Assembly (NCBI GenBank): GCA_035270125.1 | Contig: DATFIM010000163.1 | Span: 1 to 34,662 of the forward strand | Length of the DNA stretch: 34,662 bases | Direction: 5' to 3' | Source of the DNA: Halanaerobiales bacterium | GTDB taxonomy: Bacteria > Bacillota > Halanaerobiia > Halanaerobiales > DATFIM01 | Part shown: positions 6,407 through 34,066 of the stretch, piece by piece | How positions within the stretch are numbered: position 1 is the stretch's first letter | Layout: the number at the start of each line of letters is the position of its first letter | The notes under the pieces: model-generated | What the model was told of the DNA's origin: nothing | Databases searched by the model: none | The model's input: only the letters and a program-made list of their open reading frames with translations | Position numbers and translations under genes: made by a program

Positions 6407-8083
6407 ATGAATAACTTATTAGAAAATAAATTAATTGAAGAAAGTTATCTAAGTCAAAGTGAATTGGATGAAATTAAAGAACTAATGGATTTGAAAGATT
6501 ATAATGAACTAACTTTTGAAGAAATATTGGTTAAAGAAAATTATTTAAAAGAAAATGAATTAATAGAAATTTTACATCTTATATATCATATTCCAATAAT
6601 AAATTTAGAAGATTTTAAAATAAATTATAAATTATTAAAAATATTTAGCGAAGAGTTCTTAAGAAAAAACATAATAATTCCTCTTCGTATTGATGATAAT
6701 AATATAGAAATAGCTATGACAGATCCAACAGAAATAGTATTAATAGATGATATTGAAAAAATGACTGGTTTGAAAGTAAAATTATTTTTGTCTACTTCAA
6801 AAAAAATATTAAAAGTAATTAATCAACTTTATGATAAAAACTATGATTATAAAGAAAAAATATTTTCAGAAATTAATGAAAATACGAAATTAATTCGAGA
6901 AACTGATGAAATGAATGAAATGGTCCAGAAAGCTCCAATAGTAAAATTGGCAAATATGATATTGAGAGAAGCAGTTATTAATAAGGCAAGTGATATACAT
7001 ATTGAACCCGAGGAAAATAAAGTGAGAATAAGATTTAGAATAGATGGTATTTTAACTACAAAAATGGTTTTGCCCTATCAAAGTATCAATTCTTTAATTT
7101 CTAGAATTAAGATTATTTCAGATCTTGATATTACTGAAAATAGATTGCCTCAGGATGGCAGAATTGAAAAAGAAATAGATGGGGAAAAAATTGATATGCG
7201 GGTTTCAACAATCCCTACTATTTATGGTGAAAAGGCAGTAATTAGACTATTAAAAAAAGAAAATTCATTAATTAATATTAACAAAATAGGTTTTAGTAAA
7301 AACAATTTAAATAAATTTAATAAATTAATTAAAAAACAAAAAGGCGTAATATTATTGACCGGTCCTACTGGTAGTGGGAAATCTACTACTTTATTTTCCG
7401 CTTTAAATAAATTAAAAGATGATAGTAAAAATATAATTACAATTGAAGATCCAGTTGAATATAGAATTCCAGGTATAAATCAAATTCAATTAAATAAAAA
7501 AATAAATTTTGATTTTCCTAATGCATTAAAATCAATATTAAGACAGGATCCAGATATAATTATGGTTGGAGAAATTAGAGATAAAAACACAGCTTCTATT
7601 GCTATTAGAGCTGCTCTCACAGGTCATTTAGTATTAACAACACTTCACACAAATGATGCAGTTAGTTCAATTATTAGATTAATAGATATGGGAATCCCTT
7701 CATATCTTGTAGCAGCAGCAGTTAAGGGAGTTGTGGCACAGAGACTGGTAAGAAGAATTTGTGATAATTGCAAACAAAAATATTTATTATCTGAAAAAGA
7801 TAAAAGAATGTATAGTTATTTAAATGAAATTAAAAAAATATATAAAGGTAAAAAGTGTGAGAAATGTCATAAAACAGGATATAGTGGTAGAATTGCTATC
7901 CATGAAATATTAGTAATTGACAATCAAATCCAAAAAATGATTGGAAATAATATTAATGAAAGAAAAATACGCGAATATTTGGAAAGTGAAAATATGAAAT
8001 TTTTAATTGAAGATGGTTTTGAAAAGGTTAAGAAAGGTATTACAACTATAGAGGAAATTATTAGAGTTTTAGAATTAAAATAA
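6407..8083 (+). CDS. pilB: PilB/GspE-type assembly ATPase
   Basis: The 558-residue cytoplasmic motor powers pilin polymerisation. An N-terminal T2SSE_N-like domain (about 1-145) precedes the ATPase core: Walker A GPTGSGKST (319-327), Asp box ITIEDPVEY (344-352), Walker B DPDIIMVGEIRD (381-392), and the His box TGHLVLTTLHTNDA. A tetracysteine zinc site (C452, C455, C484, C487) is typical of PilB/GspE and absent from PilT retraction motors. AAGGAGGTG precedes the ATG. This is the first gene of an eleven-gene cluster. No consensus promoter is clear in the 100 bases before it, even though a terminator separates it from the crp gene. Confidence 0.95.
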   Translation: MNNLLENKLIEESYLSQSELDEIKELMDLKDYNELTFEEILVKENYLKENELIEILHLIYHIPIINLEDFKINYKLLKIFSEEFLRKNIIIPLRIDDNNIEIAMTDPTEIVLIDDIEKMTGLKVKLFLSTSKKILKVINQLYDKNYDYKEKIFSEINENTKLIRETDEMNEMVQKAPIVKLANMILREAVINKASDIHIEPEENKVRIRFRIDGILTTKMVLPYQSINSLISRIKIISDLDITENRLPQDGRIEKEIDGEKIDMRVSTIPTIYGEKAVIRLLKKENSLININKIGFSKNNLNKFNKLIKKQKGVILLTGPTGSGKSTTLFSALNKLKDDSKNIITIEDPVEYRIPGINQIQLNKKINFDFPNALKSILRQDPDIIMVGEIRDKNTASIAIRAALTGHLVLTTLHTNDAVSSIIRLIDMGIPSYLVAAAVKGVVAQRLVRRICDNCKQKYLLSEKDKRMYSYLNEIKKIYKGKKCEKCHKTGYSGRIAIHEILVIDNQIQKMIGNNINERKIREYLESENMKFLIEDGFEKVKKGITTIEEIIRVLELK

Positions 8084-8106
8084 AAAAAAGAGGGGGATAA
8101 TTGATT

Positions 8107-9330
8107 ATGGCTCCATATTTTAAATATACTGCTAAAAATAGTAAAGGTGATGAAATTAAAAAAATAGTTAAATCAGATAATCCTATAGCTATTGCTAAAA
8201 AAGCAAAAAACAAAGGTTATCATATAATTGAAATAAAAAAAACAAAAGGTATGACAATTAATAAAAAAAAGAAAAATTATTTATTAATAAAACAAAAAAA
8301 GGTTGATAAAGCTGATTTGTTTCTTTTTACAGAACAATTTGCTGTTATGACCGGTAGTGGACTTTCGATTGTAGAATCACTATTAATTTTAGAAGATCAA
8401 ATAAAAAATAAAATGTTTAAAAAAAGCATTAAAAAAATTGTAGAAAATATTGAAAAAGGAAGTTCATTGTCAGAAGCTATTAAAGTGGAGAAAAATGTTT
8501 TCCCGTATTTTTATCAACAAATGGTAAAAATAGGAGAAATGGCCGGTGTGCTACCTAAAATTTTGAAAGATTTAAGTTTATATTATAAATGGCAAATAGA
8601 AATCAGAAAAAAAGTTCTAAGTTCATTATATTATCCCATGTTATTATTAGCAGCAACATTTTTAACAATTATTCTTCTATTAACATATGTAATTCCTTCA
8701 TTTGAAGAAATTTTTCAATCTTTTAACACAAGATTGCCCTATCCAACTAGAGTCATTTTATTTATAAGTAAAAATTTAAATAATTATTTTTTATACATTA
8801 TTTTATTTATATTTTTATTAGTAGTTTTAATTAAAATATATTTTAGAACTGAGAAGGGTTCTTACACAAAAGATAAATTAATTTTAAAACTACCATTTAT
8901 AGCAAAATTAAAAAAATATATTTTACTATGGAGATTTTCCAATATGTTAAATCTGCTTATTAAAAATGGTATTTCTCTATTAGATTCATTAATTATTATA
9001 GAAAAAATAACCAAAAATAAAATAATGAAAGGAATGATACATAAAATACAGATAAATATACGAGAAGGACAGGATTTATCAACTGCTCTCTCTGAATCAG
9101 GTTTTTTTCCGAAAATAATGATAAAAATGATTAACACCGGTGAGAAAACAGGAAAATTAGAAAAAATGTTAAAAGAATTAGCAAAATTCTTTCATAAAAA
9201 ATTAAATGAAAAAGTTAAAAAAACAGTTACTATTTTAGAACCTATTTTAGTGATTTTTATGGCAGCAATAATTGCTTTTATTGCTATTTCAGTATTGCTT
9301 CCCATGTTTAATATGTATTCTTTAATTTAG
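8107..9330 (+). CDS. pilC: PilC/GspF-type inner-membrane platform protein
   Basis: This 407-residue protein has two T2SF repeats. Each holds a cytoplasmic helical bundle (about 65-170 and 265-370) with the FxxQFAVMTGSGLSIVESL and FSNMLNLLIKNGISLLDSL family signatures. Three membrane segments lie at about 173-200, 224-243 and 376-402. ATG 8107 is preferred over TTG 8101 because GAGGGGG sits about 10 bases before it and the family begins near PYFKYTAKN. It forms the platform that couples PilB to pilin insertion. It lies 23 bases after pilB. Confidence 0.93.
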   Translation: MAPYFKYTAKNSKGDEIKKIVKSDNPIAIAKKAKNKGYHIIEIKKTKGMTINKKKKNYLLIKQKKVDKADLFLFTEQFAVMTGSGLSIVESLLILEDQIKNKMFKKSIKKIVENIEKGSSLSEAIKVEKNVFPYFYQQMVKIGEMAGVLPKILKDLSLYYKWQIEIRKKVLSSLYYPMLLLAATFLTIILLLTYVIPSFEEIFQSFNTRLPYPTRVILFISKNLNNYFLYIILFIFLLVVLIKIYFRTEKGSYTKDKLILKLPFIAKLKKYILLWRFSNMLNLLIKNGISLLDSLIIIEKITKNKIMKGMIHKIQINIREGQDLSTALSESGFFPKIMIKMINTGEKTGKLEKMLKELAKFFHKKLNEKVKKTVTILEPILVIFMAAIIAFIAISVLLPMFNMYSLI

Positions 9331-9346
9331 AACAGGAGGTAATTTG

Positions 9347-9718
9347 ATGAATAATTTACAAAAAGAAAGAGGATTTACTTTAATTGAATTAATAGTAGTT
9401 ATTGCTGTAATAGGAATATTAGCCAGTATTGCTGTTCCTAGATATACTAATGTAAAAGATAAAGCTGATTTAACTGTTATAAAAATGGATTTAAAAAACA
9501 TTCAGACTCTTGTTGAAATTTATGCTCTGGAAAACGAAAATCAATATCCTTCACAAACAGAATTTGAAAACCTGGATTTTGTAAAACAAAATTATATTTA
9601 CTTAACAAATGTTGATGAATATTTAGTATATTATGAGAAAACTATAAATAATAATTTTTATTATATAAAAAATGGTGATAATAATATAAAAAATTCAGAA
9701 ACAATCCCTGAAATTTAA
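9347..9718 (+). CDS. Type IV pilin / GspG-like major (pseudo)pilin
   Basis: A short leader ending in Gly9 is followed by the class III prepilin cleavage and N-methylation motif GFTLIELIVVIAVIGILA with Glu at +5 of the mature protein. The C-terminal part is small (123 residues in all) and repeats FYYIKNGD-type polar segments. Its short globular domain and first place among the pilins suggest the major subunit of the fibre. Start is ATG 9347, with AGGAGGT six bases upstream. A prepilin peptidase gene is not in the window. Confidence 0.9.
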   Translation: MNNLQKERGFTLIELIVVIAVIGILASIAVPRYTNVKDKADLTVIKMDLKNIQTLVEIYALENENQYPSQTEFENLDFVKQNYIYLTNVDEYLVYYEKTINNNFYYIKNGDNNIKNSETIPEI

Positions 9719-9743
9719 AATTTATAAATAAAGGAGAATAAAT

Positions 9744-10244
9744 ATGGTATTTAACTATGAAAATGGTTATACCCTAATTGAAGTTATAATAGTAACTGTG
9801 ATTATTTCAATGGTAGCAACTTTTTTTAGCCTGAAAATTTCAGATGTTTATGATCTAACATTGGAAGCAACTATTGATAATATTGTTTATGATTTGAGAT
9901 GGGCCAGAATCCAGGCAATTTTAAATAATGAAAATTATTATCTCAGGGTTTATCGTAAAGATGATATTTATAAAAAAGACGATGATTATAGAAGTGATTA
10001 TATTATTTATGTCAAAGATGAAAATGAAAATATTATAGTTAAAAAAGAAGGTGTATTTTCTTCAAAATATATATTATATAAAAATCTTACACCTGTGAAA
10101 ATTGAAGATGATTATTATGATAAAATTACTTTCACTTCATTTGGTACTGCAAACCTGGGAACAATTGGTTTAAAATCTGGTAATGGAAAATTAATAAAAA
10201 TAACAGTAAATCATTTTGGGAGGATTAGAATAGAATATGACTAA
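9744..10244 (+). CDS. Prepilin-like protein, GspH/minor pilin type
   Basis: The prepilin motif is NGYTLIEVIIVTVIIS, so the mature protein would start with Tyr9 rather than Phe, with Glu at +5 (E13). The 166-residue length and the DLRWARIQAILNNENYYLRV block shortly after the N-terminal helix resemble GspH/FimT minor pseudopilins. It probably belongs to the tip complex with the next three genes. GGAG precedes ATG. The stop overlaps the next start in ATGACTAA. Confidence 0.85.
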   Translation: MVFNYENGYTLIEVIIVTVIISMVATFFSLKISDVYDLTLEATIDNIVYDLRWARIQAILNNENYYLRVYRKDDIYKKDDDYRSDYIIYVKDENENIIVKKEGVFSSKYILYKNLTPVKIEDDYYDKITFTSFGTANLGTIGLKSGNGKLIKITVNHFGRIRIEYD

Positions 10245-10653
10245 TAGAGGTTTTACATTAATAGAAATTTTGATCTCATTACTGATTATAGCTGCATTAA
10301 TTTTGGCTGTGAACAAAGTAGTTTATACAGTTAAAAAAATAAATATTAGAGCTGAAAATAATTATCAGGCCAGTGTTTATGCTCAAAATATAATTGAATA
10401 TTTAAAAAGTGAAAAAACAAATTTAAATGAAGGTGATTTCAAACTTGAAGAAATTATTAATGATAATATAAAAGACTTTTTGCAAAAAAATACAGAAAAT
10501 AGAAAGTTTGAAAATTCTTTAATAAAAATAAATAAAATTTATGAAGACCTTGAGTTAGGTATTAAATTATTTGAAGTAAAAATGATAATAGCCTGGAAAG
10601 GGGTTGATGATGTTCAAAATTATAAAATTGGCACCTATATTTATCAAAAGTAA
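10237..10653 (+). CDS. Prepilin-like protein, GspI/minor pilin type
   Basis: The leader is only five residues (MTNRG), then FTLIEILISLLIIAALI with Glu at +5 (E10). At 138 residues and with the position after the GspH-like gene, it fits a GspI/PilV-type minor subunit. Sequence beyond the helix is not diagnostic. Its start lies inside the previous gene's end (8-nt overlap) and its 3' end overlaps the next gene by 44 nt, so translation is tightly coupled. Confidence 0.82.
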   Translation: MTNRGFTLIEILISLLIIAALILAVNKVVYTVKKINIRAENNYQASVYAQNIIEYLKSEKTNLNEGDFKLEEIINDNIKDFLQKNTENRKFENSLIKINKIYEDLELGIKLFEVKMIIAWKGVDDVQNYKIGTYIYQK

Positions 10654-11125
10654 AATTAAAAAAATATATTTTAAAAAAGAAGGTTTTACCTTATTAGAAG
10701 TAATTTTGGTAATAATTATTATTGAATTATTAATGTTTAGTAGTATGACCTTTATTAGTTCATTTATAAATTTTTATTCCGATCAGGATTCAAATATATT
10801 TAGTACTACAGAAGAAAAAATTGGTGTTTTAATATTAAGTAATGATTTATTTTCAGCAAAAAATATGGTTGTAAAAGATAATGAAATATTATTTGACAGT
10901 TATTATAAAGGAAAGGAAAAAAGTTTGATTTATAGAGTTTATGACTCATCTTATGGTACTGCTTTAGGTAAAATTACTAAAGAAAATATAGAAGCTGTTA
11001 TAAATAATGTAAAAACAATAAATTTTACTAAAGAGGAAGATCTTCTTTTAGTTGATTTAGAATTTATTGATCCCAATCAAAATATAAGACATGTTAAAAG
11101 GGTTTATTATTTAAGAATTAAATAG
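10610..11125 (+). CDS. Prepilin-like protein, GspJ/minor pilin type, long leader
   Basis: The prepilin motif KKEGFTLLEVILVIIIIELLM places the cleavage at Gly25 with Glu at +5 (E30). The 25-residue basic leader is longer than those of its neighbours (5-9 residues). The first 44 bases lie inside the preceding gene. ATG 10610 is chosen because AAAGGGG sits six bases upstream; ATG 10607 and TTG 10604 are in frame and cannot be excluded. About 171 residues. GspJ/PilW-like by order and length. Confidence 0.8.
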   Translation: MFKIIKLAPIFIKSKIKKIYFKKEGFTLLEVILVIIIIELLMFSSMTFISSFINFYSDQDSNIFSTTEEKIGVLILSNDLFSAKNMVVKDNEILFDSYYKGKEKSLIYRVYDSSYGTALGKITKENIEAVINNVKTINFTKEEDLLLVDLEFIDPNQNIRHVKRVYYLRIK

Positions 11126-11146
11126 ATTCATAAGTGAGGAGATAAA

Positions 11147-11569
11147 ATGTTCAAAGAGAATGAAGGATTTACCTTATATCTTATTTTAATATCAATTATT
11201 GCTGCTAGTATTTTTGTTTTAACTTTATATAACGGGGCTTATGTCAATGTGAAATTATCTAAAAATTTAACATATCAAAATAAGGCATTTTATGCAGCAG
11301 AAGCAGCAATAGACTATTCTAAAATAATATTGATAGATAATAATGGGATACCTTTAGAAAATAAGAGTGGTGAGTTATATGTAAATGGAGAAATATATGA
11401 AAAAAGAAATATATATGGTAATAGCAGTTTTCAATTAAAATTTTATTTATTAGAAGGAGAAACAGATTACTATAAAGTTGATATTCAGGGAAAACATAAT
11501 AAAAATGTATGTAAAATTAGTGTCCAATATAATGAGCAATTTGAATTAATTAATTGTAAAAAAATTTAA
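11147..11569 (+). CDS. Minor pilin of GspK/PilX type lacking the +5 glutamate
   Basis: After a seven-residue leader (MFKENEG) the helix reads FTLYLILISIIAAS, so Leu12 replaces the conserved Glu at +5. A non-acidic +5 residue is typical of GspK and some PilX-like tip subunits. The following AFYAAEAAIDYSK is a PilX/GspK-type signature. At 140 residues it is much shorter than true GspK, so PilX-like is closer. It closes the run of five prepilin-like genes and precedes pilM by 15 bases. Confidence 0.8.
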   Translation: MFKENEGFTLYLILISIIAASIFVLTLYNGAYVNVKLSKNLTYQNKAFYAAEAAIDYSKIILIDNNGIPLENKSGELYVNGEIYEKRNIYGNSSFQLKFYLLEGETDYYKVDIQGKHNKNVCKISVQYNEQFELINCKKI

Positions 11570-11584
11570 GGAAGGAGTAGTAAT

Positions 11585-12556
11585 ATGTTATTTAAAAAAG
11601 GGAATTTAATTTATGGTTTAGATATTGGTAATTATTCCATTAAATTAGTTACTATTTTATCTAAGAATAAAAATTTAGAATTACTAAAAGCAAAATATTA
11701 CCAATTAGAAGAAAGTGTTTTTAATGAAGGAATATTGGAAAAAAAAGATATACTGAGAAAAAAAATAGACAGATATTTTGAAGAAGAAAATAATATAAGA
11801 GGTAAATTAAGTTGTTCAGTAGCTAATGAATTTGTGGTGATAAAAAATATTAATTTACCTTATATGGAAAGAAATGCAGTTATTGAAACCTTGAAATGGG
11901 AATTTGAAGATCATTTGCCTTTTTCCAGTCAGGAATCAGTTATTGATTATATGATAAGAGATAAAAACAAAGATGAAATGGAAATAACGGCAGTATTAGC
12001 TCCTTTGAAAATAATAGAAAGCTATGAACAATCTCTCGATTTATATAATTTAAGAACTTTAAATATTGAAGCTGCCGCACTTTTGAGTATATTAAAATTC
12101 AAAAATATAAAAACCACAAATTTGATTATTGATATAGGTTTTTTTAATACAAAGCTTATAGTAGGTAATAGCAAAAATATTTTTTTTACTAGAAATTTAA
12201 AATTTGGTGCTAATGAATTAAATGGTTTAGAAAATTTTAATTCAGAAATTGATAAAGAACTATATATAGAAGAATTAAAACAGGAAGTTAAAAGGGCATT
12301 TAGATTTTATAATAGAAATAATTCCAATCAAAAAATTGAAAATATTTATTTAACAGGTGGAGGAGCATATATAAAAAGAATTGGAGATAATATAAAAAAT
12401 AATGATATACTATCTCCTAAAATATTAAAACCATTTGATACAATTAACATAGATGAAAATAGGATAAAAAATAATTATAATTCCAGTTTAGATTTTACAG
12501 AATATTCAATTGCTTTTGGATTATGTTTGAGTGAGGTCTATGATTATGAAAATTGA
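11585..12556 (+). CDS. pilM: PilM, actin-like cytoplasmic assembly protein
   Basis: The 323-residue soluble protein has the actin/FtsA-fold phosphate motifs GLDIGNYSIKLV (11-22), IIDIGFFNTKLIVG (about 181-194) and LTGGGAYI (256-263). PilM binds ATP and the short cytoplasmic tail of PilN, forming a ring beneath the pilus base. AAGGAGTAGTAAT precedes ATG. It overlaps the start of pilN by 11 bases, consistent with the PilM-PilN pairing. Confidence 0.93.
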   Translation: MLFKKGNLIYGLDIGNYSIKLVTILSKNKNLELLKAKYYQLEESVFNEGILEKKDILRKKIDRYFEEENNIRGKLSCSVANEFVVIKNINLPYMERNAVIETLKWEFEDHLPFSSQESVIDYMIRDKNKDEMEITAVLAPLKIIESYEQSLDLYNLRTLNIEAAALLSILKFKNIKTTNLIIDIGFFNTKLIVGNSKNIFFTRNLKFGANELNGLENFNSEIDKELYIEELKQEVKRAFRFYNRNNSNQKIENIYLTGGGAYIKRIGDNIKNNDILSPKILKPFDTINIDENRIKNNYNSSLDFTEYSIAFGLCLSEVYDYEN

Positions 12557-13028
12557 TTTAAAAACTAAAAACAAAAATCTTAATTTAGAATATAAAAAAA
12601 TTCTTTTATATATTTTATTTTTTAGTTTTATATTTTCTTTATTTTTTAATAGTTATTTAAAAGCAAATGAATTTTTTAATTTAAAAAAAGAATATGAAAA
12701 ATTAATGGATATCTCTAATACATATAGTAATTATCAAAATAAATATAAGAAAAAACAAGAAGAAATTTTAAGCCAAAAAAATAATCAAGTAAATTGGGGA
12801 ATGATTTTTTTTAATATATATTCTAAAGTACCAGAAAATATATTTATTACTAAAATCAAATACAGTAATGCTGAACTTTCTATAATTGGAACTACAAACA
12901 TAAAAAATAATATTTTTATATTTAGTGAAGAATTAAAAAAATTAGATTTTTGTACTGAGGTCTTTGTAGATGATATTCAAAATGGTAGTAAAATATTATA
13001 TACAATAAATATTTTATTATCCAATTAG
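12546..13028 (+). CDS. pilN: PilN-like inner-membrane alignment protein
   Basis: This 160-residue protein has a basic cytoplasmic tail (1-20), one membrane helix (about 23-39), a coiled-coil segment (about 48-80), and a ferredoxin-like C-terminal domain with NWGMIFFNIYSKVPENIFIT. That is the PilN layout. The start is set at ATG 12546, with GAGG nine bases upstream. Earlier in-frame starts (GTG 12531, ATG 12540) have poorer spacing. It is one of the most AT-biased genes of the window, rich in Lys, Asn and Ile. Confidence 0.85.
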   Translation: MKIDLKTKNKNLNLEYKKILLYILFFSFIFSLFFNSYLKANEFFNLKKEYEKLMDISNTYSNYQNKYKKKQEEILSQKNNQVNWGMIFFNIYSKVPENIFITKIKYSNAELSIIGTTNIKNNIFIFSEELKKLDFCTEVFVDDIQNGSKILYTINILLSN

Positions 13029-13041
13029 AGAGGAGATTTAT

Positions 13042-13848
13042 ATGTTTGATAAGAAAAATAATTTACACATAAAAATCTTAGGAATTATCTTTATAGTTTT
13101 GCTTTTCTTTTATATTAATAGACAGCTAAATGTAAAAATTAATTCTTATGAAAATTTAATATTAAAAAAGCAAAACGAAATAAAAGTTGAAAATAAATAT
13201 AAGCAAAAATATATTCATTTAGAAGAAAAATATGATTTTAAAATTTTCAAAAAAGATGAAATAATTGAGAATTTAAACTTAATTATAGATAAAAATAATA
13301 TAAAACTAGTTAATATGAAAACAAGGGAAAAAGAAGATAAATTTTTAGTTAGTCTTAAAATATCAGTAAAATTTGATAATTTAAATTTATTTTTAGATAA
13401 TATATCTCAAGAAAAAAATTTTTATAATTTAAAAACTATTATGATTCAAAAAGATATGAATTATGAAGATAATTTATTGGTTGAAATAGAGATTTTATTT
13501 AATTTATCAGTTTTTATTGATAATAATTCTAATAATTTCTTATCAAAAAAAATATATAGTAACCTAAAGAATCCTTATAAATCAAAAATTAGCAATTCTG
13601 ATTATGTTTTGAATTATAATAATAAAGAAATAGAAATATCTTTACCAATGAGACTAACTGGAATAATAATAGGTAAAAAAAACAAATTGGCTATAATTGA
13701 AATAAATAATGAAATTAAATCTATAAAAGAGGGTTTCAAAAAATTTGGAGTTGAAGTTATGGACATCAATATAGATAATATTATAGTTAAATATAAAGAT
13801 TTATTTTTAAAAATTAATTTAGGAGGTAATAAAGGTGTATTACAATAA
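13042..13848 (+). CDS. pilO: PilO-like protein with C-terminal PilP/GspC-like domain
   Basis: A single membrane helix (about 10-27) and coiled coil (about 30-65) are followed by a PilO-type ferredoxin fold (about 75-160). A low-complexity linker (about 160-195) then leads to an extra domain, residues 200-262, starting LPMRLTGIIIGKKNKLAIIE. That pattern (L-x-G-I-I, then a strand about nature of an effector or gate, then VMDINIDNIIVKY) resembles the PilP/GspC HR domain that contacts the secretin. No separate pilP exists in the cluster. The fusion is inferred from sequence pattern, not from a profile search. At 268 residues it is longer than usual PilO (about 200). Confidence 0.75.
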   Translation: MFDKKNNLHIKILGIIFIVLLFFYINRQLNVKINSYENLILKKQNEIKVENKYKQKYIHLEEKYDFKIFKKDEIIENLNLIIDKNNIKLVNMKTREKEDKFLVSLKISVKFDNLNLFLDNISQEKNFYNLKTIMIQKDMNYEDNLLVEIEILFNLSVFIDNNSNNFLSKKIYSNLKNPYKSKISNSDYVLNYNNKEIEISLPMRLTGIIIGKKNKLAIIEINNEIKSIKEGFKKFGVEVMDINIDNIIVKYKDLFLKINLGGNKGVLQ

Positions 13849-15661
13849 AAAAATTAATTTTATTTTTGTTATGTTAGTATTGACAATTTTATTATCAGGA
13901 ACAGGCTATACTAGTGATGAAAAAATAAATCTGAACTTTAAAGCGGTAGATTTAAGAGATGCTTTGAGAACAATTGCAGAATATGCTGAAGTAAATCTAA
14001 TTGCTGATGAATCTGTGCAGGGTAAAATTACAATTAATTTGAAAGATTTAAGTTTCAAAAATGCTTTAAAATTAATTTCTGAAAGTAGTGGGCTTGGTTG
14101 GGAATATAAAAATAATACTTTTTTTGTGGCAAAAGAAAGTAGAATTCATGATTTGTTTTCTGTATTTACTCTAAAAAAGATAGAAATAAAAAATAGAGAT
14201 GTAAAAGAAGTAAAATTGATTTTAAAAGAAATATATCCTGAATTGCAAATTTCTGCAGATCTAAAAAATAACAATCTCTTTTTGAGAGGGGAAATAAAAA
14301 AGTTAAAAGAAATAGAAGAACTTATTTTGTTAATTGATCAAAAATTACCTGTTATTAATGAAATAAAAGATTTTGAATTTATTGAAGTAAATAATAATAA
14401 TAATCTAGAAGAAATATTAAAAACCATAAAACTATTATATCCAGATGTAAATTCAATAATATTAAAAGAAAATAATAAAATTTTAATTTATGGAAATTCA
14501 GAGAAAAATAAAGAAATAAAAAATATTATAAAAAATAATTTTCAAAATAAAATTAATCAAAATAAATATAAACATTCTTTAATTATAGATAAGTTACTTT
14601 TTGAACAGCTAAAAAAAATAATAAATAAGTTTGAAAATGGAGTTGATTATTTTTATGAAAACAAAAGCGGGATTCTTTATTTAGAAGGGAAAAAGGGTGA
14701 TATTGAATTTTTATTAGCTTTATTGAAAAAAATAAAAGAAAATAGAAAACCAATATATATAACAAAAAATAAAAATTTAGAATATATTGATATTAAATCA
14801 GTAGAAAATTTAAAAAAGAAAATATTTCCTGAAATAAAATTATATAGTAATTTTAAAAGATCATTGATAACAATAAAAGGAGAAAAAAATAAAATTAGAG
14901 AGTTTATAAATATATTAGAAGAAATAGATAAACCTAGAATACAGGTTATGATTGAAGCTCAAATACTGGAAGTTTCTTTTCGTGAGTTAAAAGAATTGGG
15001 TGTAAATCCTGGTGATTTAAGTAGAATAAAGATATTAGATAAAAAAGAATTAGATATTGATATAGAATTAGCTGAAATGTTTAAATTATTAAAGGAAAAT
15101 GGGAGTGCTAAGGTACTTGCTTCTCCGACTCTTATGACAGTTGAAGGAGAAAAAGCTGAATTATTGATAGGTGATAAGATACCAATGAAAATAGATAAAG
15201 ATGATCATGAAGAAATTAAATATATTGAAGCTGGTATTAAACTTCAATTTTTACCTTTAGTAACAACAAATAATGAAATTTTATTAGAAGTAAATCCTAG
15301 AGTAAGTAGTTTAGGAGAAAGTATATCAGGCTCTTTACCTTCTATTAATACAAGAGAAGTAAGTACTAATGTAAGATTGAAAAATCGCGAAACCTTTATT
15401 ATTGCTGGCTTAATACAGGAAGATATTATTAAATCAAAAATTAAAGTTCCAGTTTTAGGTGATATACCTGTATTGGGTAATATTTTCAAAAGCTATGAAA
15501 AAAGCACTAGACAAAATGAAGTTATAATTATGTTGAAGCCATATATTATAGAAAATACTCATATTAAAAAAGATAATTATCCTCAAAAGGAAGGAAAATT
15601 CAGGATTAGTATAGAAGAGTATAATGTATGGAAAGAGAAAATGGAAAATTTAAAATTTTAA
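13835..15661 (+). CDS. pilQ: PilQ/GspD-type outer-membrane secretin
   Basis: A signal peptide (1-26) precedes an STN/N0 domain (about 30-98: INLNFKAVDLRDALRTIAEY). Several N1-like repeats follow (about 110-170, 175-232, 305-365), then the secretin barrel (about 368-572) with AKVLASPTLMTVEGEKA and the hallmark VPVLGDIPVLGNIF (538-551). It should form the gated pore for a pilus or secreted substrate through an outer membrane, direct evidence that this Firmicute is diderm. Start is GTG 13835 inside the end of pilO, with AGGAGG upstream. 608 residues. The DUF-like C-terminal tail (573-608) is unassigned. Confidence 0.93.
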   Translation: MYYNKKINFIFVMLVLTILLSGTGYTSDEKINLNFKAVDLRDALRTIAEYAEVNLIADESVQGKITINLKDLSFKNALKLISESSGLGWEYKNNTFFVAKESRIHDLFSVFTLKKIEIKNRDVKEVKLILKEIYPELQISADLKNNNLFLRGEIKKLKEIEELILLIDQKLPVINEIKDFEFIEVNNNNNLEEILKTIKLLYPDVNSIILKENNKILIYGNSEKNKEIKNIIKNNFQNKINQNKYKHSLIIDKLLFEQLKKIINKFENGVDYFYENKSGILYLEGKKGDIEFLLALLKKIKENRKPIYITKNKNLEYIDIKSVENLKKKIFPEIKLYSNFKRSLITIKGEKNKIREFINILEEIDKPRIQVMIEAQILEVSFRELKELGVNPGDLSRIKILDKKELDIDIELAEMFKLLKENGSAKVLASPTLMTVEGEKAELLIGDKIPMKIDKDDHEEIKYIEAGIKLQFLPLVTTNNEILLEVNPRVSSLGESISGSLPSINTREVSTNVRLKNRETFIIAGLIQEDIIKSKIKVPVLGDIPVLGNIFKSYEKSTRQNEVIIMLKPYIIENTHIKKDNYPQKEGKFRISIEEYNVWKEKMENLKF

Positions 15662-20459: not shown

Positions 20460-20843
20460 ATGGAAAATAAAAAAAGTGAAGAATTAGGTACAATTAAAAT
20501 TGCAAATGAGGTAGTAGCTATTATTTCAGGATTGGCAGCTACTGAAGTAGAAGGAGTAGCCGGAATGAGTGGTGGAATTGCTGGTGGTATAGCAGATATG
20601 CTAGGTAGAAAGAACCTCTCTAAAGGAGTAAAAGTAGAAGTTGGAGATTCTGAAACTTCTGTTGATATTTTTGTAATTGTTGATTATGGTTCTTCAATAC
20701 CAGATGTTGCCTGGAATATACAGGATAATGTAAGAAAAGCTATAGAAAGTATGACCGGTTTAAATGCTGTAGAAATAAATGTTCATGTCCAGGGCGTAGA
20801 TTTTGAAAGTGAAGAAGAAATTGAAGAGAATGAGGAAGAATAA
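20460..20843 (+). CDS. Asp23/Gls24 family envelope-stress protein
   Basis: The 127-residue acidic protein has the Asp23 core: TIKIANEVVAIISGLAATEVEGVAGMSGG-type opening, then VEVGDSETSVDIFVIVDYG and the amphipathic VAWNIQDNVRKAIESMTGL. Family members polymerise on the membrane through the AmaP anchor and affect cell-wall stress. The gene for such an anchor follows directly, supporting that pairing. AAGGAGG precedes ATG. Asp23 between accC and nusB is the usual Firmicute order. Confidence 0.93.
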   Translation: MENKKSEELGTIKIANEVVAIISGLAATEVEGVAGMSGGIAGGIADMLGRKNLSKGVKVEVGDSETSVDIFVIVDYGSSIPDVAWNIQDNVRKAIESMTGLNAVEINVHVQGVDFESEEEIEENEEE

Positions 20844-29769: not shown

Positions 29770-30004
29770 AAAAAATGAAGATATTGAATTTGAAAAAGCT
29801 TTAGAAGAACTTGAAAAAATAGTAGAAAAACTTGAATCTGGTGATTTATCTCTTTCTGAGTCCCTAGATAATTTTTCAGATGGTGTAGAATTGATTAAAT
29901 ACTGTAGAAATGAACTAAATAAAGCTGAAAAAAAGGTTGAAACAGTTTTAAAAGATAATGAAGGTGAATTTGGAGATATAGTTCCTTTTGATGAGGAGGA
30001 GTAA
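29762..30004 (+). CDS. xseB: Exodeoxyribonuclease VII small subunit
   Basis: The 80-residue helical protein has the diagnostic FEKALEELEKIVEKLESGDLSLSESL. The start chosen is TTG 29762 within TTGAGTAA, shared with the xseA stop, with GAGGGTG upstream at the right spacing. A GTG at 29753 is in frame but overlaps that ribosome site. The acidic C-terminus (DIVPFDEEE) matches the family. It ends four bases before ispA; its last codons contain the ispA ribosome site. Confidence 0.93.
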   Translation: MSKKNEDIEFEKALEELEKIVEKLESGDLSLSESLDNFSDGVELIKYCRNELNKAEKKVETVLKDNEGEFGDIVPFDEEE

Positions 30005-30008
30005 AAAG

Positions 30009-30893
30009 TTGTGCAATATAATTGAGGACATTAACAAAAAGGCTGAAGAAGTTGAAAAAACTCTTAAAGAATTAATGAAGAGTTTTAAACCGGTTATTTC
30101 TAAAACACTCTTTGATTCAATGGAATATAGTCTCTTTTCTGGTGGTAAAAGAATTAGGCCTGTTTTGGCAATGTATAGTGCTGAAATTGTAAATGGTGAT
30201 CAAAAAACTGCCTGTAAGGTTGGGTCAGCTTTAGAGTTAATTCATACCTATTCATTAATACATGATGACCTTCCTAGTATGGATGATGATGATTACAGAA
30301 GAGGAGAAAAGGCGAATCATATTGTTTATGGCCCGGGAATAGCAATTTTAGCTGGAGATGGATTGTTGACTGGTGCTTTTGAAATTTTAAGTGATATGAA
30401 TCTTGAGCCTACTAAAAAAATAAAAATAATAAAGATAATAAGTAAAAACGCCGGAGCAAACGGTATGGTAGGTGGTCAGGTATTAGATCTTGAATCTGAA
30501 GATAAAGATATTGAAATTGAGGATTTAAAAAACATTCATTTAGCAAAAACAGGAGCTCTTTTTAAAGCTGCTATTCTAGCTGGTGCCTATACAGCAAATC
30601 CTACCAAAAAAGAAATTGAAGCATTTAAAATTTATTCTGAAAAGTTAGGTTTATTATTTCAAATAACAGATGATATTCTTGATATCATTGGCGATGAAAA
30701 AAAATTAGGCAAAGCAGTAGGAAGTGATGATCAATCAAATAAAAGTACTTATCCTAAAATTCTTGGTTTAAATGGAGCAAAGAAAGAAGCTGAAAAAATG
30801 TTTACAGAAGCTCAAAAATCATTGAATATTTTTGAAGGGAAAGCTACAAAATTAAATGAATTAGCAAAATATGTTTTAAATAGAGATCATTAA
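30009..30893 (+). CDS. ispA: Polyprenyl (farnesyl/geranyl) diphosphate synthase
   Basis: This 294-residue trans-prenyltransferase has GGKRIRP (45-51), the first aspartate-rich motif HDDLPSMDDDD (85-95), GNGMVGGQ-type segment and the second motif FQITDDILD (217-225). Tyr81, five residues before the first motif, is bulky and favours short products such as FPP. TTG 30009 is preferred, with AGGAGGA about 8 bases upstream; an extension to 29988 would place the ribosome site inside the gene. It supplies isoprenoids; dxs, for the first step of the MEP pathway, is 1.2 kb downstream. Confidence 0.93.
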   Translation: MCNIIEDINKKAEEVEKTLKELMKSFKPVISKTLFDSMEYSLFSGGKRIRPVLAMYSAEIVNGDQKTACKVGSALELIHTYSLIHDDLPSMDDDDYRRGEKANHIVYGPGIAILAGDGLLTGAFEILSDMNLEPTKKIKIIKIISKNAGANGMVGGQVLDLESEDKDIEIEDLKNIHLAKTGALFKAAILAGAYTANPTKKEIEAFKIYSEKLGLLFQITDDILDIIGDEKKLGKAVGSDDQSNKSTYPKILGLNGAKKEAEKMFTEAQKSLNIFEGKATKLNELAKYVLNRDH

Positions 30894-30917: not shown

Positions 30918-30946
30918 TTGAATGTGTATTTTTTCTATGTTATAAT
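30918..30946 (+). promoter_or_regulatory. SigA-type promoter of OLE RNA
   Basis: TTGAAT (30918-30923), a 17-bp spacer, perfect TATAAT (30941-30946). The predicted start is near 30953, twelve bases before the closing helix of the RNA. This implies independent expression of OLE RNA in addition to any read-through from ispA. Confidence 0.78.
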
Positions 30947-30952
30947 AATGAC

Positions 30953-31540
30953 AGTGTATAAAAATAGCTCAGATGGTGCAGTATTCTAGTCAACACCCTA
31001 TTTTTGAAGGCGGGCCTAAAAATCCGTCAAGGGCATATCGATGAAGTTTCTGGTATTGGCTGCTGACGCCCAGTCGGGGGTCGATACTGGGAGTTAAGGG
31101 ATAGGGGCGATCCACAATGGCATGTGGGCGTTGACCCCTTACCCGTGGAGGCCTGGATTTTCTAGTGGCCAACGGGAAATCCAGGTTTAACCTACCTGTG
31201 TCGAAAGATGTGGGTAGTGTAGCCTGCTTTGAAGTGGTAGGGGAGAGAGTGAACTGTAGTATATTCCATACCCGGAATAGTCTATAGTTTCCTGGAAACT
31301 CCTACTGCAAAAGAAGCTAGGGAATAAGAGGTGTTGTCAAGGAAAACTTCTAGACTGTCTGAGATGGATATACTGGGGATTAAAGTGTGTTCTTAGTGGT
31401 AATCCAGTTCTGTAAAGGGAGACCTTACAGTCAGATTTTAAAGGGAAACCACCTGATTGGCGACAATAAGGGAATCTGCAGGGAAAACCTACTGGACCTA
31501 AGTCACAGCATTTACCCAGGATATTACCATCTGAGCTAGT
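30953..31540 (+). ncRNA. ole: OLE RNA (ornate, large, extremophilic RNA)
   Basis: The roughly 590-nt stretch is GC-rich (33 G/C of 60 in 31021-31080, against 12 of 60 in 31561-31620) and has no credible ORF. Its ends close with a perfect 13-bp helix: TAGCTCAGATGGT (30965-30977) with ACCATCTGAGCTA (31526-31538). Other stems: CCCAGT/ACTGGG (31069-31074, 31086-31091); CCTGGATTT/AAATCCAGG (31152-31160, 31177-31185); and an 11-bp helix capped by GAAA (31192-31217). Size, structure and location between ispA and oapA-dxs match OLE RNA, a membrane-associated ribonucleoprotein linked in Bacillus halodurans to ethanol and magnesium stress. Termini are estimated. Confidence 0.92.
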
Positions 31541-31599
31541 TTTATATCTATCTTTATAATTATGATAATATTTTTTCAATAACTGAGGTGAATTAATAA

Positions 31600-32163
31600 T
31601 TGGATAATTTTAAAGCAAGTTTATTTATTGCTTTAGTTACATTTATTATTGCAATAGTAGTATCTTTTATTTCTCAATCAAGAGTACATGGAATGAGTCT
31701 GATACCAGCAGTTATAATTCTACTAATAATAATTTTCACCGGTGTTTTTTCTGATATGATTGGAGTGGCTGCAACTGTTGCCAGAGAAGAGCCATTTAAT
31801 GCTAAGGCAGCCAAAAAAGTTTTTGGCGCTAAAGAAGGTCTTTATTTAGCTAAACATGGCGAAAGAGTTGCAAGTTTAATGTGTGACATTGTTGGTGATA
31901 TATGTGGTACAATAAGTGGAGCAATAGGTGCTGTTATTGTTTTACGAATAGTTAGTAATTTTTCTTTTCCTCAAACTCCTATAAATCTTGTTCTTATTGG
32001 TTTGATTTCTGCGCTTACTGTAGGGGGAAAAGCTTATTGTAAAAGATTTGCTATGAGAAAATCTGAAGAGATTATTTTTTTTGTAGGGAAAATTTTGGCA
32101 TTTTTAAAAATGATAAAAAATGTATTTGTAAGAAAAATAAGAGGTGTATATTTAAATGAGTAA
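31600..32163 (+). CDS. oapA: OLE-associated membrane protein OapA
   Basis: The 187-residue protein has four hydrophobic helices (about 7-26, 33-55, 97-118, 126-145) and basic loops and tail. The DxxxD motif (D96-IVG-D100, in CDIVGDICG) opens the third helix, and RVASLMC precedes it. This is the layout of OapA, which dimerises in the membrane and binds OLE RNA. The gene lies 60 bases after the RNA and is coupled to dxs by ATGAGTAA. Start is TTG with GAGGTG nine bases upstream. The basic C-terminal tail (KMIKNVFVRKIRG) may face the RNA. OapB and OapC genes are not in the window. Confidence 0.92.
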   Translation: MDNFKASLFIALVTFIIAIVVSFISQSRVHGMSLIPAVIILLIIIFTGVFSDMIGVAATVAREEPFNAKAAKKVFGAKEGLYLAKHGERVASLMCDIVGDICGTISGAIGAVIVLRIVSNFSFPQTPINLVLIGLISALTVGGKAYCKRFAMRKSEEIIFFVGKILAFLKMIKNVFVRKIRGVYLNE

Positions 32164-34066
32164 AATTTTAGATAATATTAATAATCCTGATGACTTAAAT
32201 TCTTTGAATAACGAAGAGTTAGATAAATTAGCTTCGGAAATTCGAGAATTTATTATAAATAAACTTTCGGAAACTGGAGGACATCTTGCTCCTAATCTTG
32301 GTGTGGTTGAGCTAACTTTGGCTTTACACCAACATTTAAATAGTCCAAAAGATAAAATAATTTGGGATGTTGGCCATCAAAGTTACACACATAAAATAAT
32401 TACAGGTCGTAAAGATCAGTTTTCAACAATACGTCAGAAAAATGGAATAAGTGGATATCCAAAATCTAAAGAAAGCATTCACGATATAATTGAAACAGGT
32501 CATACAGCAACTTCTATTTCTTCAGCTTTAGGTTTATCTTTAGCAAGAGATTTAAAAGGGAGAAATGATAAGGTTTATGCAATAATAGGTGATGGTGCTT
32601 TAACCGGTGGTATGGCTTTTGAAGCTCTAAATCATGCAGGACATCTTGGTGTTGATTTTAATGTAATATTAAATGATAATGAAATGTCAATTGCTTCAAA
32701 TGTAGGAGCCCTATCTCATTATCTTTCTAATGTTAGAAGTGATCCAAAACTCAAAAAATTAAAAGAAGATCTTGAATTTTTATTAAATAAAATTCCTAAA
32801 ATAGGAAATAGAGTTTCCAATACTGTAGAGAGAGTTAAAAATGGGTTAAAATATACTATTATTCCAGGTATATTATTTGAAGAAATGGGCTTTACTTATA
32901 TTGGTCCTGTAGATGGACATAATATATCAAAATTAAAAGAAAGTATGCAAAAAGCAGATAAAGTAAAAGGACCTTCTATTATTCATGTTAATACAATTAA
33001 AGGAAAAGGTTATAAACCAGCTGAAAAAAATCCGGCTAATTATCATGGAGTTGGAGCTTTTGATATTGAAACTGGAAAATCTAAAAGTACTAAAGATAAT
33101 TTAACATATAGTCAGGTTTTTGGAAAAACAATGGTTAAATTGGGAAAAAAGGATAAAGATATTGTGGGAATTACTGCAGCAATGCCTAAAGGAACAGGAT
33201 TAGAAATTTTCGAAAAAGAATTTCCAGATAGAAGTTTTGATGTCGGTATTGCTGAACAACATGCTGTAACTTTAAGTGCTGGTTTAGCTAGAGGAGGTAA
33301 AAAACCAGTTGTAGCTCTTTATTCTACTTTTTTACAAAGAGCCTATGATCAGGTGATACATGATTTGTGTATCCAAAATCTACCTGTTAGTATTGCGATT
33401 GATAGAGCTGGAATAGTTGGTAATGATGGTGAAACTCATCAAGGAGCCTTTGATTATTCTTATTTGCGTGCTATACCAAATATGACAGTTATGGCCCCAA
33501 TGGATGAAAACGAATTACAACATATGTTATATACATCAGTAAATTATTCATATCCTACTGCAGTTCGTTATCCTAGAGGTGAAGGTTTGGGAGTTGAATT
33601 AGATAAAGATCTTAATAAAATTGAGATTGGAAAAGGTGAAGTTTTAAAAGAAGGTAAAGATCTTTTATTACTGGCTGTTGGTTCTATGGTAAAACCAGCT
33701 AAAAACGCTGCTGAAATTCTTGAAAAAGAAGGGATATCAGTATCTGTAATAAATGCTCGTTTTATTAAACCACTTGACCGAGAACTGATTACAGAATATG
33801 TTAAGAAAAATAATAAGGTAATTACAATTGAAGAACAGGCTTTAAAAGGTGGTTTTGGTAGTGCGGTGTTAGAGTTGTTAAATGATAAAAACATAAAAAA
33901 TTATGAATTGAAAAGAATGGGTATTCCTGATAATTTTGTTTTACATGGAGATCAGGATGAAATGAGAGCAGAATACAATCTTGATCAACGTGGAATTGTT
34001 GAATTTTCCTTAAAATTTCTTAATAAAAGGCCGGAGGTAGATTTATGGCCCAAAAAGAACGCATAG
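32156..34066 (+). CDS. dxs: 1-deoxy-D-xylulose-5-phosphate synthase
   Basis: The 636-residue thiamine-diphosphate enzyme condenses pyruvate and glyceraldehyde-3-phosphate in the first step of the MEP isoprenoid pathway. Visible are GGHLAPNLGVVEL (41-53), DVGHQSYTHK (71-80), the TPP motif GDGALTGG (145-152) leading to NDN, and the pyrimidine-domain FDVGIAEQHAVTLSAGLA; a C-terminal transketolase domain follows. Length is normal. The start shares ATGAGTAA with the oapA stop. Its last 22 bases overlap tlyA. Confidence 0.96.
   Translation: MSKILDNINNPDDLNSLNNEELDKLASEIREFIINKLSETGGHLAPNLGVVELTLALHQHLNSPKDKIIWDVGHQSYTHKIITGRKDQFSTIRQKNGISGYPKSKESIHDIIETGHTATSISSALGLSLARDLKGRNDKVYAIIGDGALTGGMAFEALNHAGHLGVDFNVILNDNEMSIASNVGALSHYLSNVRSDPKLKKLKEDLEFLLNKIPKIGNRVSNTVERVKNGLKYTIIPGILFEEMGFTYIGPVDGHNISKLKESMQKADKVKGPSIIHVNTIKGKGYKPAEKNPANYHGVGAFDIETGKSKSTKDNLTYSQVFGKTMVKLGKKDKDIVGITAAMPKGTGLEIFEKEFPDRSFDVGIAEQHAVTLSAGLARGGKKPVVALYSTFLQRAYDQVIHDLCIQNLPVSIAIDRAGIVGNDGETHQGAFDYSYLRAIPNMTVMAPMDENELQHMLYTSVNYSYPTAVRYPRGEGLGVELDKDLNKIEIGKGEVLKEGKDLLLLAVGSMVKPAKNAAEILEKEGISVSVINARFIKPLDRELITEYVKKNNKVITIEEQALKGGFGSAVLELLNDKNIKNYELKRMGIPDNFVLHGDQDEMRAEYNLDQRGIVEFSLKFLNKRPEVDLWPKKNA

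Follow-up and report, generated by a model that had tools for sequence, protein, structure and literature searches.

The whole stretch of DNA analysed here, 34,662 nucleotides in length and called the window below, was found to hold a full-length OLE RNA (Rfam RF01071) on its plus strand at positions 30957..31546, in a genome whose gene content points to a diderm, i.e. outer-membrane-bearing, Halanaerobiales-type bacterium. Judged from the sequence, we consider it highly likely that the identity of the RNA, the diderm nature of the host and a function as OLE complex hold together, the transport mechanism being treated apart. Among conserved RNAs of bacteria that lack a known biochemical function, OLE is one of the largest, and it acts together with membrane proteins. 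As a kind of RNA it was already known; the window adds a member and a natural test system.

The initial annotation had proposed an OLE RNA at 30953-31540. The corresponding covariance search was run, and the Rfam scan of the window at gathering threshold gave OLE RNA as its single match, covering the model from end to end (model positions 1-616 of 616) with 478.2 bits (E 1.7e-137; gathering score 50). Because of this covariance-model match the identity is settled to near certainty, and the proposed limits were right within few bases. The same genome carried 1 copy of the RNA, and the covariance-model scan of 14 control genomes yielded no match. With a G+C content of 46% versus approximately 26-36% in the flanking coding sequence, the region is GC-rich relative to its surroundings, as had been noted, but not in absolute terms. 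On the plus strand no open reading frame of at least 80 amino acids spanned the RNA, and one 80-amino-acid frame on the minus strand is incidental. The annotated perfect 13-bp terminal helix was exact, its 5' arm lying at 30965..30977 and its 3' arm at 31526..31538 (both plus strand). As the Rfam model leaves the ends of OLE unpaired, this helix was examined separately. Outward, past one A.C mismatch, 7 further pairs followed, so that 20 of 21 positions were paired. Helix positions 1-7 were paired in all 22 class sequences compared with anchored ends and without a tree (8 of the 30 class sequences lacked an anchor and were omitted), and at positions 4, 5, 7 and 8 both partners had changed (for instance T-A to C-G or A-T to G-C). 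By this sequence comparison the terminal helix covaries among the relatives from the class.

The plus-strand sequences of several published contact sites agreed with the family consensus. These were the A-rich loop L4 at 31015..31026 (CCUAAAAAUCCG), which forms the inter-molecular A-A bridge B1 in cryo-EM (PMC12286853), the J4a/5 region at 31037..31048 (AUCGAUGAAGUU), known as the k-turn/OapC site (PMC9723947), and the hairpin loops of the P5 region at 31065..31075 (GACGCCCAGUC) and of the P6 region at 31115..31124 (CAAUGGCAUG). The P5-region loop was assigned from the text of PMC12265935 as one half of the published dimer kissing contact, and the P6-region loop is presumed to be its partner.

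The gene order was folD-xseA-xseB-ispA-ole-oapA-dxs, followed by an FtsJ/S4 protein gene, folD and xseA being named by eye; the part from xseA to dxs is the customary operon of OLE. More precisely, the RNA sits between ispA and oapA: its placement between ispA and dxs in the initial annotation was correct for the upstream gene, an ispA-type polyprenyl synthetase gene (29988..30893, plus strand; PF00348, E 1.5e-59), but oapA directly follows the RNA and dxs (32156..34066, plus strand; PF13292, E 4.8e-118) comes only after oapA. A putative ole promoter with an extended -10 element (TG), TTGAAT-17-TATAAT, was found at 30918..30946 on the plus strand with 10 of 12 consensus matches; it ends at 30946, about 10 bases ahead of the RNA. 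Overall, the promoter scan was not significant (6 sites versus 3.8 +/- 2.2 in shuffles). The promoter call is supported by recurrence of the box in relatives and not by the scan alone, since nearly every class member listed has a TGTTATAAT or TGGTATAAT box directly upstream of OLE (L044 was unclear). Elsewhere in the window an Asp23-family, YqhY-like protein is encoded (20460..20843, plus strand; PF03780, E 3.6e-38), and yqhY is among the OLE-associated genes (PMC12265935).

The adjacent OapA of the initial annotation was present at 31600..32163 (plus strand) as a protein of 187 amino acids with a TTG start, recognised by a weak CNNM match and its likeness to OLE-adjacent OapA proteins. Its residues 39-177 matched CNNM with E 1.1e-4, under the Pfam cut-off, which agrees with the relation to CNNM domains published for OapA, and it was 36-62% identical to seven further OapA proteins encoded next to OLE. 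Hydrophobic peaks were located near residues 6-24, 32-50 and 97-123, with a weaker one at 158-176. Both further partners, a common but not universal trait of OLE genomes, were encoded as well. OapB was missed by a search for KOW domains and was revealed by gene order, between map and infA (G000:C227:11899-12180), together with a match to OLE-associated protein B (PDB 7k9b, E 2.6e-13). An L7Ae-type, OapC-like protein of 79 amino acids is encoded at G000:C179:1503-1742, with the gene for the RNA polymerase beta' subunit on one side and that for S12 on the other; it was assigned to the OapC/YbxF kind by family scan, under the NCBIfam cut-offs, and by gene position.

OLE was detected in 284 of 399 genomes of the phylum sample and in 32 of the 59 genomes of the class, where the window's genome is the sole one of its family in the comparison set. 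Full-length OapA was found in exactly the same 32 class genomes. Using counts whose Fisher values ignore shared ancestry and were not taken as probabilities, OapB was present in 25/32 genomes with OLE versus 3/27 without, the L7Ae protein in 27/32 versus 3/27, and the CorC_HlyC domain in 22/32 (21/32 without a copy in G406 cut by a contig end) versus 27/27. The OLE-less genomes with OapB were the same as those with the L7Ae protein (G407, G408, G431). Some absences may be due to incomplete genomes. In G423 and G424, OLE and OapA were present, while OapB, the L7Ae-type and the CorC_HlyC protein were not found.

As for the mechanism, we consider a CNNM-type Mg2+ transporter core regulated by an RNA the most likely one, at about an even chance of being right. 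Following the literature, two OLE RNAs would dimerise via loops L4, P5/P6 and P9, and the dimer would be seated on OapA in the inner membrane, with OapC bound to the k-turn and OapB to the P13 arm. OapA would then be the core of a CNNM-type transporter of divalent cations (Mg2+), OLE RNA would supply the regulatory part, a role that in MpfA-type proteins falls to the CBS and CorC domains, and the complex would couple Mg2+ handling to membrane stress. This mechanism is favoured by the strict pairing of OLE and OapA, the published Mg2+ phenotype and the weak CNNM relation. A possible but less probable reading sees in OLE chiefly a ribozyme or structural scaffold, with OapA as membrane anchor only and ion transport as secondary. 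The size and conservation of OLE, the catalysis proposed in the field (PMC11332333) and the conserved sequences of the published contacts in the window RNA all fit it; on the other hand, catalytic activity was not reported in the OLE literature examined, and OLE and its OapA were retained or lost as a pair, a pattern that speaks for a joint function while still being compatible with a scaffold.

Two observations count against the main reading, the P9 loop described below and a complete CNNM-CBS-CorC_HlyC protein that the window's genome encodes alongside OLE, so that OapA and this protein are not simple substitutes and OapA is not the host's only protein with a CNNM core. In this class MpfA and OLE show only a weak form of their published anticorrelation, because the CorC_HlyC domain occurs in most OLE genomes as well as in all others. 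A clean swap from OLE to an MpfA-type protein in genus g269 had been considered, as PF03471 gave no match in the OLE-bearing G406 and a divergent protein was found in the OLE-less G407 and G408. It was rejected, since G406 has a copy of 85% identity that is truncated at a contig end; for the same reason the gene probably predates the loss of OLE in this genus. The CNNM-CBS-CorC_HlyC proteins of g269 (L108, L109, G406:C23:20083-20586) shared only approximately 36% identity with the one encoded in the window's genome.

Losses of OLE were traced in the same genus. The gap between ispA and dxs measured 296 and 288 bases in G407 and G408, leaving no room for the RNA, and contained the promoter box and a recognisable, decayed N-terminal oapA fragment (L085:2986-3281 and L084). 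Both genomes still encode OapB and the OapC-like protein, and G406 has kept OLE as well as oapA. G407 and G408 have undergone a recent deletion of OLE, with oapA left as a fossil. A second kind of change concerned the P9 kissing loop, which is symmetric in cryo-EM structures with a palindrome alternating between GGCC, GAUC and AGCU (PMC12286853). This loop is a structural feature and no part of the OLE family definition. Since minimum-energy folding misfolded P9 in several Halanaerobium RNAs, the loops were read partly by eye from the sequence. Palindromic cores were found in 27 of 30 class RNAs (GAUC in 18, GGCC in 8, GUAC in 1), the exceptions being GAAC in G409, a missing arm in G203 and AUAC in the window, where the apical loop L9.3 reads AUACCC at 31268..31273 (plus strand). 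The AUAC core is not self-complementary, and the symmetric kissing loop for dimer bridge B3 is thus absent from the window RNA; the core may also be a sequencing error. The OLE RNA of G203 (L048, 544 nt) has lost the P9 arm together with the kissing loop, its conserved flanks being joined by a short stretch, and otherwise covers the whole model with 489 bits. Given the broken cores of the window and G409 and the absent arm of G203, the P9 bridge appears to have become relaxed in some members of the order, and published OLE variants with a shortened P9 are also known (PMC11332333).

The broken P9 loop, along with the outright loss of OLE in relatives that keep an oapA fossil, could suggest that the locus is a decaying relic and the RNA out of use in this lineage. 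We consider this very improbable in view of 478 bits over the full model, a near-perfect terminal helix of 21 positions, the promoter box and an open oapA frame of 187 codons. Expression and function of OLE in this host are graded as very probable.

The outer membrane of the host, already suspected in the initial annotation of an anaerobe, is predicted from genes for lipid A synthesis and outer membrane assembly. LpxC was identified in the window's genome with E 4.5e-101 and in 55 of the 59 class genomes. The open reading frames beside lpxC resembled BamA, Skp, LpxD, LptF/G and LptA (named by eye from sequence and order), and a secretin is encoded at 13835-15661 on the same contig as OLE. It belongs to a type II secretion or type IV pilus operon at 6407-15661 with an ATPase, an inner-membrane protein, several pseudopilin-like frames and a PilM-like frame, of which ATPase and secretin were assigned by family scan. 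Outer membranes with LPS are stated for Halanaerobiales (PMC5007114). In G425 and G426 (genus g275), both without OLE, the LpxC match was split in two inside a single open frame of 355-400 amino acids. That the OLE contig is instead a Gram-positive contaminant in the bin, as an assembly of 243 contigs with 2.15% estimated contamination might allow, is extremely improbable given the secretin on the same contig, the OapA relatives found, which all came from Halanaerobiales, and the presence of both OLE and lpxC in further genomes of the order and class, some of them assembled as single contigs. The emphasis of the initial annotation on OLE in an outer-membrane host was correct in substance, but carriage is widespread in the class and the window is no isolated case.

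OLE in Bacillota that encode lipid A bears on the model of contact with a thick Gram-positive wall. In the literature examined OLE is treated as a Gram-positive RNA. A 2024 survey placed OLE in most Bacillota classes except the Gram-negative-staining Negativicutes and suggested a link to Gram-positive cell walls (PMC11332333), and in 2025 domain 2 was proposed to cross the membrane and maybe to reach the peptidoglycan (PMC12265935). If domain 2 protrudes through the inner membrane, it would lie in the periplasm in this class, and contact with a thick wall could then not be its general role. We tentatively propose, at less than even chance, that OLE works inside a two-membrane envelope, that wall contact is not its general role and that the P9 arch and kissing loop are dispensable in several species. 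The word Halanaerob is absent from the text of the 2024 survey (PMC11332333), and no paper pairing OLE RNA with Halanaerobi or Halothermothrix was found in a search of largely freely accessible literature; since the data set of the survey will have contained these genomes, carriage by diderms is not claimed as unreported. With about half of its genomes with and half without OLE, and with fresh losses visible as fossils, the class offers a natural test set. It could reveal the requirements of the OLE complex (OapB, OapC), possible replacements for it and the importance, if any, of a thick wall or the P9 bridge.

Compared with known systems, MpfA-type transporters share with OapA a weakly related transmembrane (CNNM) core, and an overlapping role in Mg2+ export was proposed for them and OLE/OapA. 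Unlike OLE/OapA, they contain no RNA and carry their regulatory domains on the same polypeptide as the core; a protein of this architecture accompanies OLE in the majority of OLE genomes in this class. The OLE systems of Halalkalibacterium halodurans and Clostridium acetobutylicum (RF01071) are closest: the window RNA likewise spans the whole model, occupies the same operon place by oapA and dxs, agrees with the consensus in L4, the k-turn region and the P5/P6 loops, and is accompanied by genes for OapB and an OapC-like protein. It differs from them in the P9 palindrome (GGCC in most, AUAC here) and in a host with genes for lipid A and for the assembly of an outer membrane. 'Variant 1' and 'variant 2' of the TANB77 and RF39 clades (PMC11332333) have a domain 1 reduced at P7-P9, as seen in the relative G203. 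Unlike these variants, the window RNA matches the model throughout, also in P7 to P9, and with OapB and the OapC-like protein kept in its genome it is therefore of the full-length type.
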